Source: Agarivorans sp. Toyoura001 (lineage in GTDB: Bacteria; Pseudomonadota; Gammaproteobacteria; Enterobacterales; Celerinatantimonadaceae). Taken from it: a stretch of DNA of 64,000 bases. Below, in pieces: positions 41,997 through 53,251 of the stretch; within the stretch, counting starts at the first letter, position 1; each line of letters opens with the position of its first letter. Made by a program: the position numbers and the translations under genes. A model generated the notes under the pieces. It worked only from the letters and a program-made list of their open reading frames with translations. It had not been told where the DNA came from and did not search any database. The DNA is taken from NCBI RefSeq assembly GCF_005405585.1, contig NZ_BJEQ01000005.1, positions 1-64,000 on the forward strand, in the 5' to 3' direction.

Positions 41997-42100
41997 TGGA
42001 ATTTTTGCTGTAAATATCTAGTTACTCGAGCTATCTCTTTGTTTTAGTAATAGTTAAGTGCAATTGACACTAAAAGACTATAACATTTATACAACATATC

Positions 42101-42120
42101 GGCCTGCATCTTTGCAGGCC
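42101..42120 (+). terminator. Hairpin between sdaA and the di-heme cytochrome gene
   Basis: Stem GGCCTGC/GCAGGCC with a 6-nt loop, 105 bp after sdaA. No real T-tract follows, so termination is uncertain. It lies before the chosen cytochrome start and argues against the GTG at 42058. Confidence 0.5.
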
Positions 42121-42150
42121 GCTTGCATTATTACAAATGGATTTGAAACT

Positions 42151-44262
42151 ATGCTACTACAGCTCCTCTCTGGGCTATTTTTGCTCGTGTTAAAAATTGT
42201 GGCCTTTCCTTTTAAGCTCATCATTAAAGGGATCATGGCGGTAATACATTGGGTATCGGGTTTACTAAAAGCCCTATGGCAAGTTTGGTTAGCACTTGGC
42301 CCGCGATGGTTACGTTATTCTTTTCTGAGCATTGCTATTGTGCTCGCTGGCTATTTCTCATTAAAAGCCTTTCTCAAACCTAACTTAACCTTAGAAACGG
42401 TAAATCAGGTTCATTACCTCAATAAGGGCTGGAGCGACGAACAGCGCGAACGTTACTACTACACCCCCCAAGGCACCGAACTATTAGGTTTAGAATACGA
42501 CTGGTTCGTTAACTTAGAGTTGCCTTTATCTAAAGATTTACTGACAAGCCCAGACAACATGCGTGGCTGGGGCTTTATTGTATCACCAGGACAACAGGCC
42601 ACTACGCTAAACCCAGGTAATTTGCCGGTTGGTTTAGGTCGACATATTGACCCTAAATCGGGTAAAGAGCGCTTAGACCTTAGCTGTGCGATGTGCCATA
42701 CCGGCGAGCTTCATTATAAAGGTAATGCCTTGCGAGTTGATGGCGGACAGGCAGTTCAAAGTATCTCAAATGCCAAACGCGGCGAATTCATTACAACCTT
42801 AGCAGCCTCGGTAGTAGCCACTTATATTAATCCGGTTAAATGGAATCGCTTTGCCGACAGAGTTGTTGGCCAAGACCCAGAACTACGAAAACAACTACGC
42901 AAACAGATTTGGGGCTTCTTAGGCAACATTAAGCAATTTGTTACTGGTGCTGGCGCCTCTAAATATTACCCAACTGAAGAAGGCCGAGGCCGAACTGATG
43001 CAGTTGGACGTATTGCAAACGTTGTGTTTGGTTACGACTTAGATGAGCCGAGTAACTACCGTGTAGCAAACGCCCCGGTAAGTTACCCCTTCCTTTGGGA
43101 CATTTGGCGCTTTGATTGGGTGCAATACACCGGCTTTACTAATCAAGCGATGGCGCGCAACGTAGGCGAGAGCCTCGGTGTGTTAGCGCCAATTAAGCTA
43201 GTGAATGATGAAGGTAAGCTGCTCACAACAGAAGAATTTGGTGAATCGGTCATCGATTTAGCAGGTATGCATTGTATTGAAGGTACGCTGCGTTCATTAG
43301 AACCCCCTCGCTGGCCAGAAGAAATTCTCGGCAATATTGACCTCGATAAAGCGACTCACGGCAAAGAGCTTTTCTTAGATCAATGTCAGTTCTGCCATGG
43401 CCCGCATAAAGTTGAACCTTACCAGTGGAAGGTCGCCAGTAAGGCGGGACAGAACCCAGATAATCAAATAGACGTTAACTGGCAATGGGATATGGATGGC
43501 GATGTTACTTTCGTTGGTCAACAGGCTGTACGAGAAGACTGGCGTAAAGTAATTTGGGCAATGCCTTGGGTGAAAACCACTGTTATAGGCACCGATCCTA
43601 CTGCGGCCGACAATTACATGGATCACCGTTACGATGGCAGTAAAATCATTCCTGGTTCAGAGCCCGTTAATGCGGGCGATGGTTTGCAGATTTTGCTCAA
43701 TCGTCTCGTGCCTAAACTGTATCAAAATAATGGTATAAGCAAAGAACTAGTGGCTGATTACGACGGCTTAAACGTACCTTTCCGTATTGCTAATATGCGC
43801 GCCTACAAACCGCGCCCATTACATGGCGTATGGGCAACTCCGCCATTCTTACATAACGGTTCTGTGCCGACTTTGTATGACCTACTCTCGCCACTTAGAG
43901 AGCGCCCTAAACAGTTTTATGTAGGGGATAGAGAATATAACCCTCAGCGTTTAGGTTTTGTCACAGACAAACGCCCTGGCAGTTTTAAACACGACACCAA
44001 CATTAAGGGCAACAGTAATCGCGGTCACCTATTTACCGACGTAGATATGCCCGGTCGCATCGGTCGCTTACTCAGCGTAGAAGAACGAGCAGCCATTCTT
44101 GAATACTTAAAAGTGATGGGAAATCCAGACTTTACTCAACGCTTAGGCGGCGATCCTTTAGATTGGTCAGCTTATACACAGGCGCCTACTTTTGCGTCAG
44201 AGCAGCAAGCCTGTTTAGACAGTTTCAGTGCTGCTAAAAACAACCCCGTGAAGGTGCATTAA
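42151..44262 (+). CDS. Membrane-anchored di-heme cytochrome c, RoxA-like
   Basis: A 703-residue protein with two or three N-terminal hydrophobic segments (within about 1-75), then a large periplasmic part. Two CxxCH heme motifs are visible: CAMCH (about residue 179) and CQFCH (about 411). YKPRPLHGVWATPPFLHNGSVPTLYDLL near 550 is typical of di-heme peroxidase-like proteins, here most like the rubber-oxygenase RoxA group. The substrate is unknown; polyunsaturated or isoprenoid oxidation is only a guess. ATG at 42151 is preferred because the longer GTG frame runs through the hairpin. A catalase-like gene follows after one base. Confidence 0.72.
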   Translation: MLLQLLSGLFLLVLKIVAFPFKLIIKGIMAVIHWVSGLLKALWQVWLALGPRWLRYSFLSIAIVLAGYFSLKAFLKPNLTLETVNQVHYLNKGWSDEQRERYYYTPQGTELLGLEYDWFVNLELPLSKDLLTSPDNMRGWGFIVSPGQQATTLNPGNLPVGLGRHIDPKSGKERLDLSCAMCHTGELHYKGNALRVDGGQAVQSISNAKRGEFITTLAASVVATYINPVKWNRFADRVVGQDPELRKQLRKQIWGFLGNIKQFVTGAGASKYYPTEEGRGRTDAVGRIANVVFGYDLDEPSNYRVANAPVSYPFLWDIWRFDWVQYTGFTNQAMARNVGESLGVLAPIKLVNDEGKLLTTEEFGESVIDLAGMHCIEGTLRSLEPPRWPEEILGNIDLDKATHGKELFLDQCQFCHGPHKVEPYQWKVASKAGQNPDNQIDVNWQWDMDGDVTFVGQQAVREDWRKVIWAMPWVKTTVIGTDPTAADNYMDHRYDGSKIIPGSEPVNAGDGLQILLNRLVPKLYQNNGISKELVADYDGLNVPFRIANMRAYKPRPLHGVWATPPFLHNGSVPTLYDLLSPLRERPKQFYVGDREYNPQRLGFVTDKRPGSFKHDTNIKGNSNRGHLFTDVDMPGRIGRLLSVEERAAILEYLKVMGNPDFTQRLGGDPLDWSAYTQAPTFASEQQACLDSFSAAKNNPVKVH

Positions 44263-44263
44263 G

Positions 44264-45511
44264 ATGAAAAAGACTCCTATCATTCAGTGCACAATTACAG
44301 CGAGCTTGCTGGCTATTGGATTAAACAGCGCAACGGCGACTGATTTGTACCAGGAAATGGGCATTACCAAGCCCGAGCAAGAAGCAATAATGTCGGCGAT
44401 TAACTCGGCGAGAGAAATCTCTAAACGTGCAGAGCAATATAACGGCTTGCCCTACCGTCGTGATGCTCATGCAAAAGCAACTGGGTGTGCTCGTGCCACT
44501 TTCTCAATCAACCCAGATATACCGGAGCGCTTTAAAGCCGGTATGTTTGCCGACGCTGATAAGCAGTACCTAGCATGGATCCGATTTTCTAACGGAGACA
44601 TGTTAGTGCAAGCCGATAGTAAAGGCGATGCGCGAGGCATGGCAGTTAAGGTGATGGGTGTACCCGGCAAAGCCATTGCTCCAGAGCTAGGCGAAACTCA
44701 CAACCAAGATTTCATCATGACCAATACCCCTGCGTTCTTTAATCGAAACATCTTTGATTATGCTGATGACATGTTGTATTTGGCTAAGTTTGAAAGAACC
44801 AAGTGGTTTATTAGTTTCTTTCCGCCACGCTTACACCCTAAGCAGTTCTATCGCGCCATTCAGACGGTTTCATCAGTGATTGATACCCCTCTGAATGCAC
44901 AATATTTCTCGATGCTGCCCTACCGACTTGGTAAGAGCACTATTAAATTCTCGACTAAACCCTGCTCTGGCATGAGTTTCCCTAACAAAGTAGATAAATC
45001 AAATCCCGATTATTTAAGCAAACAGTTAGAAACTCAACTGGCTAACGGCGGAGCTTGTTTTGAATTTATGCTTCAAGAGAAAGTACCCGGCCATTACATG
45101 CCAGTAGATGATGCCACCGCGATTTGGTCTGAAAAGGCCTCACCGTTTATCACTGTAGCCACCATCAATATTCCGCCGCAGTATTTATACTCGGATCAGC
45201 AGCAACAGTTTTGTGAAAACATTTCGATGAACCCTTGGCGTGCAGTAGAAGGCTGGGAACCTTTAAGCAGTTTAAACAAGGCTCGACGCGTGGTTTATCA
45301 AGCGGTGTCTAAGTATCGTCATTCCCAAAATAAAGTGCCTACACCAGAACCTAGCTCTTGGTGTATAAACGAAAATGGTGAAGCGTGTGACGAGAACCAA
45401 GGCTTAATTGTTAGTAAACCTACCTGGCCATTACCGCGCTGTTTTGACCAAAACGCTAAATCTATCGATGGCGAAACTCTCGCTAGCGATTGCAAACAAC
45501 AAGCTTACTAG
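44264..45511 (+). CDS. Exported catalase-fold heme protein (y4iL-like)
   Basis: A 415-residue protein with a Sec signal peptide (about 1-25). It has a minimal catalase-like fold. DAHAKATGCARATF (about 66-79) matches the catalase distal-His motif, IRFSNGD follows, and FIMTNTPAFF matches the Asn-containing segment. A C-terminal ARRVVYQ could provide the proximal heme Tyr. The tail has several cysteines (CINENGEACDEN). Related proteins include peroxidase-like and fatty-acid hydroperoxide enzymes; the true reaction is not known. One base separates it from the cytochrome gene, so the two probably work together in the periplasm. Confidence 0.75.
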   Translation: MKKTPIIQCTITASLLAIGLNSATATDLYQEMGITKPEQEAIMSAINSAREISKRAEQYNGLPYRRDAHAKATGCARATFSINPDIPERFKAGMFADADKQYLAWIRFSNGDMLVQADSKGDARGMAVKVMGVPGKAIAPELGETHNQDFIMTNTPAFFNRNIFDYADDMLYLAKFERTKWFISFFPPRLHPKQFYRAIQTVSSVIDTPLNAQYFSMLPYRLGKSTIKFSTKPCSGMSFPNKVDKSNPDYLSKQLETQLANGGACFEFMLQEKVPGHYMPVDDATAIWSEKASPFITVATINIPPQYLYSDQQQQFCENISMNPWRAVEGWEPLSSLNKARRVVYQAVSKYRHSQNKVPTPEPSSWCINENGEACDENQGLIVSKPTWPLPRCFDQNAKSIDGETLASDCKQQAY

Positions 45512-46759: not shown

Positions 46760-49603
46760 TTAGCCTTGTTCAACTGTTTGATTATCGATAAGCGGTGAGT
46801 TGCCACTTAACTCTTTCTTTAGCTCACTGTCTAAACGCCAAATTGCTTGCCACACTAAGTCGGTCGTTTGGGCGGTGTCGTCTACCCAATGTACCAATTT
46901 CATTTGGTAATCAACCGTGTCAAAGCCAATATTAGATACATCAGTATAGACGCGCTTTACCGCATCAATGGCGATTAAAGCGGCTTCGATCTTAGGGATG
47001 ACGTTAAGAGGTTCAATCTCTTTACTCACCGACATAGAAAAACCGCCAGTAACAATCTGACCACTACTACTCACATTGTTTAAATTTGCATTTGCCAAGG
47101 TATTATTTGGAATAGAATACAAAGTATTGTCGGCTGTTTTCACTTTGGTGGTTCGCCAATTCATGTCAATTACTTCGCCCACTATTGGCCCGCCAGAGCT
47201 ACCAAGACTAATCCAATCTCCTAACTTAAACGGCTTCTCTAAACTAATCGCAATCCCTGAAAATATATTCACCAGGTTTGACTGCAATGCCAAACCGAGA
47301 ATCATTGCCACCAAACCAGAGGTCGCCAACAAGCTGGTGAGCTCTCGTTGATATACAAAGGACAAAATCGCAAATACAGCACCTATATAGGTAATGCCTC
47401 GCGTAAAGTGGCGCATAATTTTTGGCACTTGGCGGCCACTGCGTCGCTCGATGGGATCCCACAACAATACATCCACCAACAACGCTAAAGTTGAGGCGAA
47501 CAATAGCCACCACAGCACATCAAAACAGTTGCTAGCAAATGATTGATTAGTATTTGGATAAGCCTGTGCCAACCAATCTAAAAATAGCGGTTCTGCCGAG
47601 GCGATAAATAAGGCGTAAAGCAGCTTATTGCCTAAGCCGTAAGCTCTCGACAACTGACCAAGTATCTTAAAATCAAGTACTAGAGCGTATAACAACCATG
47701 CTAGTACACTGGTATAAAAGATGATTTGTTGCCATTGGGCAGGAATACGCCCGCGCAGGCTAAGGGCGTTTTCAAAAACTGGCGTTACCGAGTTAAATCG
47801 AGAAAACTCCACTGCTTGTCTGTCTGAGTGAAGATACTTTGGATCTCCCAAGCTTCGCTTACGCAGAGTATCTTGAAATGACAGTGATGCTTTTTGACGC
47901 CATTGGCTATTATCGAATTGAACCTTATGCTGGTTTTTCACGTTTTTGTGAAGGCTTGTTTGGCCTAAGCCAACAATATCTGACACATAAATGAGTTCGC
48001 TTCTAGGCAGCGTTTTGTGGCGAAAACTCACTCCCAATTGATACTCACCAAAAGCTGCTCTGCCGGGTTTTGCATCAGCAATAAACGTTCCTTCAACTTG
48101 ATAGAGTTGGTAAGTACTTAAACTAGTGTACGAAGATTCTATAGGTGTAGACAGCACCAGTTCACCGACAGAATTTAGAAATACGATATCTTCAGCGTTA
48201 ACACCAGGAGTATTTCTAAACCAGATCTTAAATTTGGCCTGAAAAGTCATGTCTAGCGTAGAGAACTGATTAATGCTCTGCATCTCTACCCCGGTATACA
48301 CCACATCAGTTCGGCGAGTGCTGAGCTGACTTTCGGGAGAAATTTGCAACTGCAGTGGCGCTGATACAAACGCCCCACCACTAAATAGTCCTACTTGCAT
48401 GGGGCGCTGAACATTTCCTTGATGGTCAAAATACAAGGAATGAGTAAGCCCCCTCACCGACGCGCTTTGAGAGTTAAAACTTGCCAGTTTATTTTTTACC
48501 GCTGCTCGTTGGCTTGATATGCTTTTTTGGCTAAATAGCTCTGTTCCGCCAACATCAACAATGGCAGCGCTTAAGGCCTCCGAGGCGATAGTAGTCGCGT
48601 CAAAATACGCTGCAGACACACCGCTGGGTTCATAACCAAAATCTTGATTAAAATTACGATAAAACAACTGAGTAGACTCACTGGCCACATCAAACAACAT
48701 GGGGCTAACCGCTAACATGCCATTAGTGAAGTAACCAGACACTTCTTGCTCTTGGCTACGCTGTTTAAACCGCTCTGGAAAACTCTGTTTACCGATTGAT
48801 GAGCTACCAATAAACGTCCAGTTAGGATGCTGATGTTTTAGTTGGCTAACTAATACTTCACCTTGAACATCGCCTACCGCTAAAAACACCGCGCCGGTAT
48901 GGCCAAATTGACTAATTTCTCGACTTATTTTGTGGGCCTGTTTCTCAATGTTACTGCTTGGTTCAACCATAAAGGGTTTAGTTTCTATACCAAACAGATC
49001 GGTGCGAGCTATAAATGCATCGGCCAGGGATACGCCAAATTTATCGTTGCTAAAGATCATTACAACTTTATCTTTGGCCAGACTGGCAATGTAATCGGCT
49101 ACGAAACGCCCCTGTAACTTGTTATCTGGTATAACACGAAACGCCCAATCATTGTTCTGAGTAATTTCAGGTGCAGTGGCGGAAGCGCCAATCATTGGCA
49201 TACCGATACGTTGATAGATTTTGGCTGCTTCAACTGAGGTATCAGAATCGCGGTGACCAAGAACCGCTATAACATTTGAGCTATTAACAAATTGATTGGC
49301 TATTTGCTCTGCTTTGGCGATGTTATTAGCATCATCGTACTGCTGAACAGACAGTGCTATTTGGCTGTCTAAACGTTGTTGATTGTATTGTTTAACAAAT
49401 AGTTCAGCGCCTCTCACCATAGCCAGGCCTTTGTCTGCTTCAGGCCCAGTCATTGGCCCAACAACAGCTAATACCAGAGTGTTGGTATTGCTGTTGCTCA
49501 GCCAATGCTGTAAGTTTTCGTAACTGGTCACAACAGCACTGATTAACACCGCTATGCAGCCCAGTACTAACATGCGTCTGCGTAAGGTCCATCTCATCGT
49601 CAA
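46760..49603 (-). CDS. Fusion of periplasmic binding domain, beta-rich domain and MscS-type channel
   Basis: A 947-residue membrane protein with an unusual domain order. It has an N-terminal membrane anchor (about 10-28). A type-1 periplasmic binding domain of the branched-chain amino-acid receptor class (about 42-410; VVGPMTGPEADKGL, VLGHRDSDTS, FSNDKFG) follows. A beta-rich domain (about 433-545) comes next, with the pattern VYTGVEMQSI...TFQAKFKIWFRN...YQVEGTF...FGEYQLGVSF, then a linker. Three to four membrane helices (about 625-755) precede the MscS pore helix and beta domain (LVAMILGLALQSNLVNIFSG at 764-783, then LEKPFKLGDWI) and a C-terminal alpha/beta part. The start is TTG at 49603 (AAGGA at about 8 nt) or ATG at 49597. 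It is the last gene of the operon. Confidence 0.85.
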   Translation of the reverse strand: MTMRWTLRRRMLVLGCIAVLISAVVTSYENLQHWLSNSNTNTLVLAVVGPMTGPEADKGLAMVRGAELFVKQYNQQRLDSQIALSVQQYDDANNIAKAEQIANQFVNSSNVIAVLGHRDSDTSVEAAKIYQRIGMPMIGASATAPEITQNNDWAFRVIPDNKLQGRFVADYIASLAKDKVVMIFSNDKFGVSLADAFIARTDLFGIETKPFMVEPSSNIEKQAHKISREISQFGHTGAVFLAVGDVQGEVLVSQLKHQHPNWTFIGSSSIGKQSFPERFKQRSQEQEVSGYFTNGMLAVSPMLFDVASESTQLFYRNFNQDFGYEPSGVSAAYFDATTIASEALSAAIVDVGGTELFSQKSISSQRAAVKNKLASFNSQSASVRGLTHSLYFDHQGNVQRPMQVGLFSGGAFVSAPLQLQISPESQLSTRRTDVVYTGVEMQSINQFSTLDMTFQAKFKIWFRNTPGVNAEDIVFLNSVGELVLSTPIESSYTSLSTYQLYQVEGTFIADAKPGRAAFGEYQLGVSFRHKTLPRSELIYVSDIVGLGQTSLHKNVKNQHKVQFDNSQWRQKASLSFQDTLRKRSLGDPKYLHSDRQAVEFSRFNSVTPVFENALSLRGRIPAQWQQIIFYTSVLAWLLYALVLDFKILGQLSRAYGLGNKLLYALFIASAEPLFLDWLAQAYPNTNQSFASNCFDVLWWLLFASTLALLVDVLLWDPIERRSGRQVPKIMRHFTRGITYIGAVFAILSFVYQRELTSLLATSGLVAMILGLALQSNLVNIFSGIAISLEKPFKLGDWISLGSSGGPIVGEVIDMNWRTTKVKTADNTLYSIPNNTLANANLNNVSSSGQIVTGGFSMSVSKEIEPLNVIPKIEAALIAIDAVKRVYTDVSNIGFDTVDYQMKLVHWVDDTAQTTDLVWQAIWRLDSELKKELSGNSPLIDNQTVEQG

Positions 49604-50662: not shown

Positions 50663-52509
50663 TAAATAAGGCCCATGCTTTGCCAATAAGGAATACTGGC
50701 GTACACCGCAATTAACTTAAATAAGTAGATCGCAATATTCATCTTCATGAGTTTGGCTTCGTCGTTGCTAACCACCCCAGTGGTTAAACTGAGGAACTGC
50801 ATGTAATAAGACGCTTGAAACGGCCAAAAAAAGCTTTCTGAAAGAAACAGCACTAAGAACCCTATCACCCAGGGATTTACGCCAACTTCAATCGATGCAG
50901 GGATAAGCAAGGTCGCTAAGATGACCACGGTGGCGTTAATCGGTAATACCAGCCTCACTAAGCTCACGATTAGCGCTAACATGACCACAAATAAGGCCAA
51001 GCTTTCTTGCATATAAGCTGCTAACCAATAAATTTTTCCGGTCAGCCATACGTCTAGTTCAACTTGGTGAATAATATCGACCATACCGATTAAAGAACCG
51101 AGAAAAACTAGAAAGCTCCAATCAATCTTTTGCCTAAATTGATTAGGATTTAGAAAGCCAAACATCATCAAGTAAAACAAGATCGCCAACGCAACCCATG
51201 CCACCTCTATACGGTGAGTATTGGCAAACAATAAACTGGCAATAAGCACAATTAGGCCAAGAATAGATGACCATTCAGCGGGATTTAACGGGCCTAGAGT
51301 TTTTAGCTGCTGATCACTTATCGATTTAGGGATTGTTAAGTTTTGATTATTGCGATAAATCCAACACAGCGCGATGACATAAAGTAACAACAAAACTAAA
51401 CCACAAACCACAGCGGCAATTAACCAGTCTAACCATTGAAAGTATTGCTGAACTTGCTGAGGCAGCATACCTAGCACAATAAAGTTAACCGATTTGCTGC
51501 TCACGAAAATAGGCGACAGTAAGCTCGCGCCAAACAGCAAGCTGGCTTTTAAACGCGGCCCTTCTTGTTCGCGAGCTTCTTTTGAAGCGCCACTGAGCAA
51601 GTCTTTTAAGAAAGGCGCAACAATAGTCACTCGGCCATTAACCGTTGGTACAACTGGGGTAAGTAACGCTCCGACACTAAAAAAGCTAAGGTTATACCAA
51701 ATCTTTGAGGCTGGCCCAATTAACAGTAAATGCAATAACATGCGATAACTTAAGCCTGAAGAACGTATCACCGCACTTAATCCCAAAATACTTAAAGCCA
51801 TAAAAAAGCTATTGCTAGAGAATCCTGAAAATGCCGATTCGCTACTGGTAATCCCCAACAACACTGCGCTTAACACCGCAAATAAACCCGGCACATAATC
51901 GGGGAGTAAACGAAAAATCCACATGATCGAACATATGCCCAGAATGGAAGCAAAATAGATGGCATCTTGATGCAGGCCTTCGTCGCTATATTGCAGGCCC
52001 ATGTAAATCATAACTGGGGTAATTAAAGCAAACAGCCAACCAATCAGTAATCGGTATCCAATCTCTACTTCTGGCTGTTTAGATAAATCTACTTCTACAT
52101 GGGTTTGCCCAGCTAAACGTGCGTGAAAACTATCCAGCAAACTTTGCTTGAAGCTTGAATACCTAACCAGAGTTTTTATTGTTTCTAGTGGGAGCACAAC
52201 TACCTCGGCGCAATCTACAACTTCAATATCGTAAATGTAGCTGCGCATACCGAGTGCTGACTCCTCACCGAAAAAACCACTAATGGGCCCTTTAACTTGG
52301 TCTTTATTAGTAGTTTCTAGCTCCCCCTCTAGTAAATAATAAAGCTTATCTGCAGTATCACCGGTATGACAAAGACGCTCGCCAGCAGCTAGTTTCTCGA
52401 TACTTATATTTGCTAATAACCGTGCTAGATCTTCTTTATCACACCCAGCAAAGGCCGGCGTTGCCTTAAGAAAATCCCCCAATGCTTGTAACTGCGCTGA
52501 ATCACTCAT
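50662..52509 (-). CDS. SLC13-type anion permease with N-terminal cyclic-nucleotide-binding domain
   Basis: A 615-residue inner-membrane protein. The N-terminal part (about 10-135) has the cNMP-binding fold (LCHTGDTADKLYYLLEGELE, FFGEESALG). The rest (about 165-615) has about eleven or twelve hydrophobic segments in the SLC13/DASS anion-symporter arrangement, with SPIFVSSKSVNFI and LPINATVVILATLLIPASIE in the places of the family's substrate motifs. In the phosphate-binding cassette the usual PR-x-A stretch reads MRSYIYDIE, so nucleotide binding is uncertain. ATG at 52509 overlaps the previous stop (ATGAGTGA). The frame opens at 52614. Confidence 0.83.
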   Translation of the reverse strand: MSDSAQLQALGDFLKATPAFAGCDKEDLARLLANISIEKLAAGERLCHTGDTADKLYYLLEGELETTNKDQVKGPISGFFGEESALGMRSYIYDIEVVDCAEVVVLPLETIKTLVRYSSFKQSLLDSFHARLAGQTHVEVDLSKQPEVEIGYRLLIGWLFALITPVMIYMGLQYSDEGLHQDAIYFASILGICSIMWIFRLLPDYVPGLFAVLSAVLLGITSSESAFSGFSSNSFFMALSILGLSAVIRSSGLSYRMLLHLLLIGPASKIWYNLSFFSVGALLTPVVPTVNGRVTIVAPFLKDLLSGASKEAREQEGPRLKASLLFGASLLSPIFVSSKSVNFIVLGMLPQQVQQYFQWLDWLIAAVVCGLVLLLLYVIALCWIYRNNQNLTIPKSISDQQLKTLGPLNPAEWSSILGLIVLIASLLFANTHRIEVAWVALAILFYLMMFGFLNPNQFRQKIDWSFLVFLGSLIGMVDIIHQVELDVWLTGKIYWLAAYMQESLALFVVMLALIVSLVRLVLPINATVVILATLLIPASIEVGVNPWVIGFLVLFLSESFFWPFQASYYMQFLSLTTGVVSNDEAKLMKMNIAIYLFKLIAVYASIPYWQSMGLI

Positions 52510-53251
52510 GGCAATATTGCTTCGTAGAGGTGACGGCATGTACTTGATACTCTGCACCGGGAACCAAAATGTATTCACTTGCGCCTTGTCTAGACGCAGG
52601 GTTCCCCCAATCAAAGGTGTAACCTAAGCCAGTCCAAGGAACGCCTGCCGTAGCTCGAAAACTTTTGAAATATAACTGCTGGTAATAATTGGCGTAGTTA
52701 TCTATCCCCTTTACCGAGCCAGTAATGTTGCTTGCCTCTAATTGGCAACTGCTATCGTTAGTTTCTGGGTCAACACAAGGGCGAAATAGATCGTCAGGCT
52801 TAACATACAGGCTCACTATAGCGTCGTAATGCCAATTGGGGTCAAGGCCTAGATATTGCTTTAAGCGCAAGGCTAATTGTTCCTGCTCTAAACCAGGATG
52901 TTGTTTAACGTAGTATTGGCAAAACTGACGTAACTGCGGCGCCAAGCTTACCCAAATTGGATAGTCTGGGTTTTCTGAACTGTGGGTGTTAGGTAAGATG
53001 AACTGGTCAATCGCTTGTTGGTTTTTCCAAGTCACTACCAACACTTTGTCGCCTTGTTCGTTCCATTGCAGCGACTCATTTTGTTGGTTGAGAGCGAACA
53101 AGTTGTGACTCACATCTTGGTTACTTGGAAATGCAGCTTGAACAACTGCGTCTTGGTAGTTGCTGTCTAGGTTCGTTAAATGTTGGCTACAGCCAACTAA
53201 CGCACAGAGGCTTAATAGCAAGCTCATTGCGGAGGTTGTTAATGGTTTCAC
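52502..53251 (-). CDS. Lipoprotein, first gene of the binding-protein/permease/channel operon
   Basis: A 249-residue exported protein with signal peptide and lipobox ALVGC at about residue 21. I do not recognise the family. Four cysteines in the second half (QFCQYY, RPCVDP, SSCQLE and KQYCHE at the end) could form disulfides. The start is GTG at 53251 with AGGGAC upstream. Its stop overlaps the permease start by 8 bp, so it belongs to the operon, perhaps as an envelope partner. Confidence 0.65.
   Translation of the reverse strand: MKPLTTSAMSLLLSLCALVGCSQHLTNLDSNYQDAVVQAAFPSNQDVSHNLFALNQQNESLQWNEQGDKVLVVTWKNQQAIDQFILPNTHSSENPDYPIWVSLAPQLRQFCQYYVKQHPGLEQEQLALRLKQYLGLDPNWHYDAIVSLYVKPDDLFRPCVDPETNDSSCQLEASNITGSVKGIDNYANYYQQLYFKSFRATAGVPWTGLGYTFDWGNPASRQGASEYILVPGAEYQVHAVTSTKQYCHE

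Follow-up and report, generated by a model that had tools for sequence, protein, structure and literature searches.

A stretch of 64,000 nucleotides from Agarivorans sp. Toyoura001 (GCF_005405585.1, contig NZ_BJEQ01000005.1, positions 1-64,000 of the forward strand; hereafter the window) contains a gene whose product combines a type-I periplasmic binding protein (PBP) domain, a beta domain homologous to the extracellular domain (ECD) of pentameric ligand-gated ion channels (pLGICs) and a pore of the MscS type. Judged from its sequence, this protein is classed as a channel of the MscS superfamily with a pLGIC-derived sensory half, and not as a pLGIC. It is likely that it represents a naturally pore-swapped receptor channel, that is, a PBP-pLGIC whose pore was replaced by an MscS module. 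No description of a pLGIC ECD placed on an MscS pore was found in the literature searched, which included few subscription papers and no preprints.

The gene (46760-49603, reverse strand) is a single frame of 947 codons without internal stop. It starts with TTG, an ATG follows at codon 3 and the frame is open for 5 codons further upstream. Full-length copies with 74-78% identity are present in 4 of 6 congeners, and in 2 of the 6 no match for the middle domain was found. These intact copies, together with 40 MscS-type open reading frames (ORFs) outside the genus, some of which end at contig or locus ends, rule out the frameshift or assembly join that the initial annotation had named as a possible source of the fusion. 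The features of the gene and its neighbours are collected in Table 1.

Table 1. Features of the fusion gene and of the genes upstream of it (window coordinates; residues refer to the 947-residue protein)
Feature	Position	Strand	Basis
Whole gene: type-I PBP domain, pLGIC-type ECD, MscS pore; 947 residues	46760..49603	-	Intact ORF and full-length orthologues
N-terminal hydrophobic segment, residues about 7-32, signal peptide or anchor, after RRR	49508..49585	-	Hydropathy
Type-I periplasmic binding (Venus flytrap) domain, residues about 42-410	48374..49480	-	Pfam Peripla_BP_6 / ANF_receptor; PDB LIVBP-type matches
pLGIC-type extracellular beta domain, residues about 431-614	47762..48313	-	Profile HMM and hhalign to PBP-pLGICs and plain pLGICs; Foldseek on low-confidence model
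Degenerate Pro-loop, R515-Y521 (A517/G519 at pLGIC P and D/E positions)	48041..48061	-	Alignment of 101 domains
Four transmembrane segments before the pore helix, residues about 624-751, the second weak	47351..47734	-	Hydropathy
Pore-lining helix (MscS TM3), residues about 755-790	47234..47341	-	Hydropathy; position inside YnaI match 693-844
MscS cytoplasmic beta domain, residues 779-845	47069..47269	-	PF00924 (MS_channel_2nd), E 4.7e-18
Cytoplasmic C-terminal region of MscS type, residues 846-947	46763..47068	-	Partial alignments to MscS C-terminal region
Upstream neighbour: TrpX-like solute-binding protein, 353 residues	49625..50686	-	NCBIfam TrpX E 2e-4, far below cut-off; order kept in 4 congeners
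Upstream neighbour: cNMP-binding domain fused to DASS/Na_sulph_symp transporter, 650 residues	50662..52614	-	Pfam, NCBIfam; order kept in 4 congeners
Upstream neighbour: 249-residue protein, lipobox-like N-terminus, no family match	52502..53251	-	Order kept in 4 congeners

Homology of the middle domain to pLGIC extracellular domains

Pfam gives no match for about residues 410-690 of the protein. The middle domain is 77-84% identical to those of the four congeners and is under strong purifying selection (NG86 dN/dS of 0.018 between the congeneric copies L011 and L012; both comparisons involving the window copy are saturated at silent sites for this domain). A simple linker was therefore rejected, as the domain is both conserved in the congeners and strongly selected.

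Its relationships were followed with profiles of the five congeneric middle domains (A1), of MscS-type domains (A3, 14 rows), of the ECDs of three PBP-pLGICs (A4; L039, L041 and L044) and of plain bacterial pLGICs (A6, 9 rows). The search of 369 genomes of the window's class with A1 gave 10 matching genomes, including that of the window, with the matches lying in long ORFs; some of these have the order PBP, middle domain and MscS, several with a C-terminal domain binding cyclic nucleotide monophosphates (cNMP). L039, L041 and L044 carry a related PBP and middle domain on a four-transmembrane (4-TM) pore, with the classical YP-F/V/L-D loop. The hhalign comparison of A3 with A4 gives a probability of 100 (E 9.5e-41, 195 columns), and that of A3 with A6 a probability of 99.1 (E 4.8e-19, 161 columns). 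Both intermediates lead in turn to solved structures: A4 finds 120 PDB sequences at E up to 1, the best 60 of which are all pLGIC chains with GLIC first at 6e-4, and A6 aligns with GLIC near end to end (profile positions 53-338 of 342, E about 1e-30), the best 60 of its 301 PDB chains at E up to 0.001 being GLIC or GLIC chimeras. Moreover, a hidden Markov model (HMM) built from the MscS-type domains alone (Z set to 97,000) matches the nine plain pLGICs of A6 directly, at E values from 6e-13 to 5e-3. It also matches L096, a 212-residue ORF without a detected pore (E 2e-11), and none of 440 reversed ORFs at E < 10.

A fold search on the middle domain points in the same direction. Residues 431-614 were modelled with AF2 from the single sequence, with no alignment, and compared with the PDB by Foldseek, keeping matches to E 10. 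The best 50 of 1550 matches are all pLGIC or AChBP chains (top E 5.1e-4, probability 1.00). The neighbouring 249-residue protein, taken as a control fold, gave a best Foldseek E of 1.3; its model is poorer (pLDDT 33), so it is a weak control. The fold search is read as supporting a pLGIC-like ECD, not as proof of it.

Several results weigh against the assignment. Searched against PDB sequences, A3 reaches no solved pLGIC and has PH0099 as its sole match (E 0.67). The Pfam family Neur_chan_LBD (PF02931) gives no match in the window protein or elsewhere in its genome; across 60 relatives it matches in two genomes (E 0.11 and 0.27), with none above the cut-off. For these two reasons the homology to pLGICs is to be regarded as transitive, established through bacterial intermediates, namely the PBP-pLGICs and the plain pLGICs. 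Besides, the AF2 model is poor (pLDDT 43, pTM 0.40), only 1 of the 1550 Foldseek matches lies below E 0.001, and the query-normalised TM-scores among the best 50 of them are 0.23-0.35. The gap in Pfam, the lack of a solved pLGIC among the A3 matches and the low-confidence model are what could be expected of an unrelated beta-sandwich whose likeness to a pLGIC ECD is convergent or accidental. However, the significant profile links lead to proteins in which a pLGIC pore follows the domain, and the best 50 Foldseek matches hold nothing except pLGIC and AChBP chains, which leaves this explanation with very little credit. By sequence homology, to describe the middle domain as a relative of the pLGIC ECD is right.

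The initial annotation had proposed a pentameric-channel-like domain at residues 433-545, with the strand motifs VYTGVEMQSI, TFQAKFKIWF, YQVEGTF and FGEYQLGVSF. The four motifs are present and the likeness is borne out by hhalign, by the HMM matches to plain bacterial pLGICs and by Foldseek on the domain alone, as it had suggested to check; the extent was drawn too short, since the domain spans about 431-614.

Relatives, Pro-loop and origin of the fusion

With the combined profile A5, matches were obtained in 43 of the 398 genomes searched in the phylum and in 18 of the 369 searched in the class. Within the window's order 7 of 295 genomes match, five from the window's own genus together with G714 (a 4-TM form) and G957 (a fragment with 2 stops). 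Among 72,556 plasmid records there are 9 matches, all from Azospirillum, three of which were taken into the classification, and in another phylum, that of an Atopobium genome, 1 of 246 genomes matches with a 386-residue frame that was left unclassified. The whole protein was also used in a scan of genome contigs by short peptide patterns, which are narrow and returned only two MscS proteins of Atopobium; viral contigs gave 103 pattern matches and no relatives.

In total, 101 ORFs were classified: 45 end in an MscS pore, 50 in a 4-TM pore and 6 could be assigned to neither. The domain order of the window protein, for which the initial annotation had proposed a survey of genomes, is also found outside its genus: the MscS-type ORFs comprise 31 with PBP-ECD-MscS, 9 with PBP-ECD-MscS-cNMP, 4 with ECD-MscS and 1 with ECD-MscS-cNMP, whereas 29 of the 4-TM forms have a PBP and 21 do not. 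The PBP and cNMP counts are to be read as "at least", as some ORFs are cut by contig or locus ends, and the 45 include the window copy and those of the four congeners; relatives are not independent. The C-terminal cNMP-binding domain is carried by ten of the 45 (L033-L036, L040, L042, L043, L092, L119 and L120), nine of them also with a PBP. It speaks against the strength of these counts that pore types were mostly called by local HMMs built from family members, Pfam confirming a sample. The MscS call was confirmed in 6 of 6 MscS-type proteins scanned. On the bacterial 4-TM forms the Pfam models perform weakly: Neur_chan_memb matches 10 of the 12 that were scanned, with E values from 6e-6 to 0.45 that never reach the cut-off. 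L039 has in addition an NCBIfam LIC match, likewise below the cut-off (E 1.3e-6).

Two longer PBP-pLGIC-like ORFs, L143 and L155 (789 and 884 residues), show weaker PBP matches and a gap between the PBP and ECD matches. The PBP-ECD ORF L056 (G524:C222) ends about 33 residues past the ECD and lacks a pore domain; at the Pro-loop it agrees with the MscS forms, and it may be a truncated gene or the product of a frameshift.

In pLGICs the Pro-loop contacts the 4-TM pore and couples the ECD to it. The initial annotation had placed a short loop at the Cys-loop/Pro-loop position before FGEYQLGVSF; the position is right, but the signature is absent, the window protein having A517-F518-G519 in the beta6-beta7 loop instead of P-x-[D/E]. 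This holds for the whole group: P-x-[D/E] occurs in all 49 4-TM forms that have residues in these columns (the remaining one of the 50 is gapped; plain pLGICs are included in the count) and in 0 of 42 such MscS forms (3 of 45 gapped), eleven of the MscS forms keeping P alone and four D alone. It is present in three of the six unassigned ORFs and absent from three. Since the loop contacts the 4-TM pore in pLGICs, the loss of the signature along with that pore fits a pore exchange.

Trees of the three domains were built before 41 later ORFs were added. The ECD tree holds 52 of 60 ORFs, leaving out L011-L013 (near-copies) and L063, L074, L075, L093 and L096 (cut or short); the PBP tree has 40 receptor rows and 10 LivK, without L011-L013, L063, L064, L066, L078 and L092; and the MscS-domain tree has 30 fused and 12 free pores, without L011-L013, L066 and L073. 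The ECD tree, with its outgroup of plain pLGICs, unites the 30 MscS forms with two incomplete ORFs in a single clade (100/98) that lies among the PBP-pLGICs. Similarly, the 30 fused pores form one clade against the 12 free MscS (99/100), and all receptor PBPs stand apart from LivK (100/100).

The ECD and MscS-domain trees are consistent with a single pore replacement, with some reservations. The sister of the MscS clade in the ECD tree, L044/L072, is weakly placed (83/37), and there are long-branch warnings in the ECD tree (four long rows) and in the MscS tree (among the free MscS). The PBP tree mixes MscS and 4-TM forms, and the window PBP groups with those of the 4-TM forms L039 and L041 (94/89 at the node with L041, 96/72 with L039); a single clade of MscS-type PBPs is neither rejected nor demonstrated (p-AU 0.094). 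Forcing the window ECD to L039/L041 was rejected (p-AU 0.02), the group having been named after the PBP tree was seen. The simplest reading of these trees would be one pore exchange plus some PBP exchange or tree error, although more than one event is possible.

The MscS form is confined to the window's genus among the 295 genomes searched in its order, and for this reason a transfer into the genus seems plausible. An unfused arrangement occurs in L111 (G000:C19, 5389-8123), where an ABC operon for branched-chain amino acids, which includes a LivK, is preceded at about 490 bp by a YnaI-like MscS gene, and neighbouring PBP and MscS matches recur in several genomes of the family. An unfused LivK operon and YnaI-like gene in the window's genome, about 490 bp apart, were considered as the source of the fusion and rejected, because the fused pores are a separate clade.

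Binding domain, pore and proposed mode of gating

The first and last parts of the protein, which the initial annotation had read as a type-1 periplasmic binding domain (about 42-410) and an MscS pore, are both clear. Pfam finds Peripla_BP_6 at 45-402 (E 7e-21) and ANF_receptor at 72-400 (E 4e-21), and among PDB sequences the N-terminal part is closest to LivJ-type binding proteins, with a match to 4mlc over residues 60-346. S120 and T143, invariant in the five congeneric copies, align with S79 and T102 of LIVBP, the residues that anchor the amino acid in ligand binding. As these two are kept, an amino-acid-like ligand is a first guess; specificity is not fixed by the aligned residues, because other contact positions differ (L77 to R118, D121 to N161, Y150 to F189).

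The MscS part matches YnaI/MscS PDB sequences at residues 693-844 (E 2e-13), aligned with YnaI 77-229, YnaI being the closest solved structure. Partial alignments continue towards the C-terminus (NCBIfam 755-911, 4hw9 728-902); PF21082, the MscS C-terminal alpha/beta domain, has no match in the window protein and has one in the relative L033. Neur_chan_memb has no match in the window protein either, the MscS module standing in place of the 4-TM pore with M2, and Pfam detects no cNMP-binding domain in it. Hydropathy places five segments after the middle domain. As the basic loops lie on the side expected, the binding and middle domains are predicted to be periplasmic and the MscS domain cytosolic. 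The channel probably sits in the inner membrane.

In the mechanism proposed, the ancestor would be a PBP-pLGIC whose 4-TM domain was replaced by the 5-TM MscS module, an event that would have freed the Pro-loop from coupling the ECD to the 4-TM pore. On binding of a small solute, probably an amino-acid-like one, the Venus flytrap domain would close in the periplasm, the ring of ECDs would act as a transmission collar between binding domain and pore, and the movement of the collar would open, close or retune the MscS pore, setting its open probability. Relatives that carry a cNMP-binding domain at the C-terminus may respond to the nucleotide level of the cytosol as a second input. Ligand gating is a proposal for the window protein, and stoichiometry poses a difficulty for a pore-swapped receptor: pLGICs are pentamers and MscS channels heptamers (5 chains in the solved entries of GLIC, 7 in those of YnaI/MscS), and a pentamer-type ECD would have to pack on a heptamer-type pore.

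The protein could also be an ordinary tension-gated MscS channel, in which PBP and ECD tune tension sensitivity, anchor the channel or sense crowding and no ligand opens the pore. The MscS domain is intact and the most conserved part of the protein, with TM3 and the beta domain 97-98% identical versus 64-68% in the PBP (two pairs), the coupling signature of the Pro-loop is lost, and many MscS homologues have extra N-terminal domains; all this agrees with such a channel. Nevertheless, strong purifying selection acts on the ECD, two different pores are found behind the conserved PBP-ECD order, S120 and T143 remain at the LIVBP positions and a cNMP-binding domain has been added in 10 of 45 relatives, and we regard tension gating alone as an unlikely account.

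The closest known systems are the bacterial pLGICs with an N-terminal PBP-I domain, reported as ART-LGIC/PBP-I fusions by Tasneem et al. (PMC549065). They share the order of periplasmic domains with the window protein and their ECDs are homologous over about 195 columns; however, they end in a 4-TM pore and carry P-x-[D/E], whereas the window protein has a 5-TM MscS pore and no Pro-loop signature. The 2016 survey of bacterial pLGICs discarded terminal regions outside the two signature domains (Jaiteh et al., PMC4795631). The word "MscS" is absent from the main text of PMC549065, and "mechanosensitive" from that of PMC4795631. DeCLIC is described in PMC12664993 as a pLGIC with an added N-terminal domain whose lobes are homologous to other prokaryotic regulatory regions; like the window protein it has an accessory periplasmic domain on a pLGIC ECD, but its pore is that of a pLGIC. 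GLIC and other bacterial Pro-loop receptors have an ECD homologous to that of the window protein, and differ from it in lacking the PBP domain and in their pore. YnaI-type MscS channels align with it in pore and beta domain, the module having five hydrophobic segments; the free channels have neither PBP nor ECD, and the fused pores are a clade of their own. Bacterial cyclic nucleotide-gated (bCNG) channels consist of an MscS pore and a cNMP-binding domain, and we know of none with PBP or pLGIC domains. The likeness to them lies in the relatives with a C-terminal cNMP domain, since the window protein has none and it is the neighbouring transporter that carries one. Work on bCNG channels is listed in PMC4560390 (Caldwell et al. 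2010; Malcolm et al. 2012).

The family may constitute a separate class of ligand-gated channel, with a whole pore taken from another superfamily and a domain of the five-ring type gating a pore of the seven-fold type; we hold the chances of this to be evenly balanced. It would imply a heptameric ECD, a pentameric MscS pore or mismatched rings, which is the symmetry question raised by the chain numbers above, and to our knowledge each of the three would be new. The family would also offer a natural chimera for testing the modularity of ligand gating, the PBP-ECD front half being found on two unrelated pores, and a handle on the role of the Pro-loop, whose signature is absent from forms without the pLGIC pore. 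For the MscS superfamily it would provide a plausible extracellular chemical input; the cNMP-type relatives would place a second, cytosolic ligand sensor on one and the same MscS pore, in nine cases together with a PBP.

Genomic surroundings

Upstream of the fusion gene lie the three genes listed in Table 1, and downstream a gene for a DUF1835 protein; the neighbourhood is kept in the four congeners, as judged by N-termini and sizes. The TrpX-like neighbour has no Pfam match and no PDB match.

Elsewhere, 15 of 32 distinct MscS-type loci adjoin homologues of type I secretion ABC, HlyD and TolC proteins on the same strand (L050, L051, L052, L117, L157-L164, L166, L168 and L169). These 15 span 13 genomes or records; 33 loci were listed, L113 and L173 being the same place, and some loci are short. 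In L159 Pfam confirms the ABC, HlyD and TolC families, and L165 has ABC and TolC homologues only. HlyD was found in 0 of 16 PBP-pLGIC control loci; of these, L188 has homologues of ABC and TolC, and L191 matches ABC weakly. Neither the 4 congener loci nor the 8 distinct cNMP-type loci that were examined (two of them short) have HlyD.

Such surroundings could suggest a receptor that conducts little and reports ligand occupancy to partners, which would be the DASS-cNMP transporter and the TrpX-like protein in the window and type I secretion elsewhere. The neighbours conserved in four congeners and the excess of secretion homologues over the control loci are in accordance with it, but no part of the protein is as well conserved as the pore helix with the beta domain, and HlyD is missing from the congener and cNMP-type loci examined, so that we consider this role decidedly improbable.

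One Azospirillum locus also adjoins a giant protein with VCBS domains. Within the window, positions 42058-45511 of the forward strand encode a RoxA-like cytochrome c protein and, after it, a member of the catalase family, and a similar pair is found in three congeners (L107-L109).

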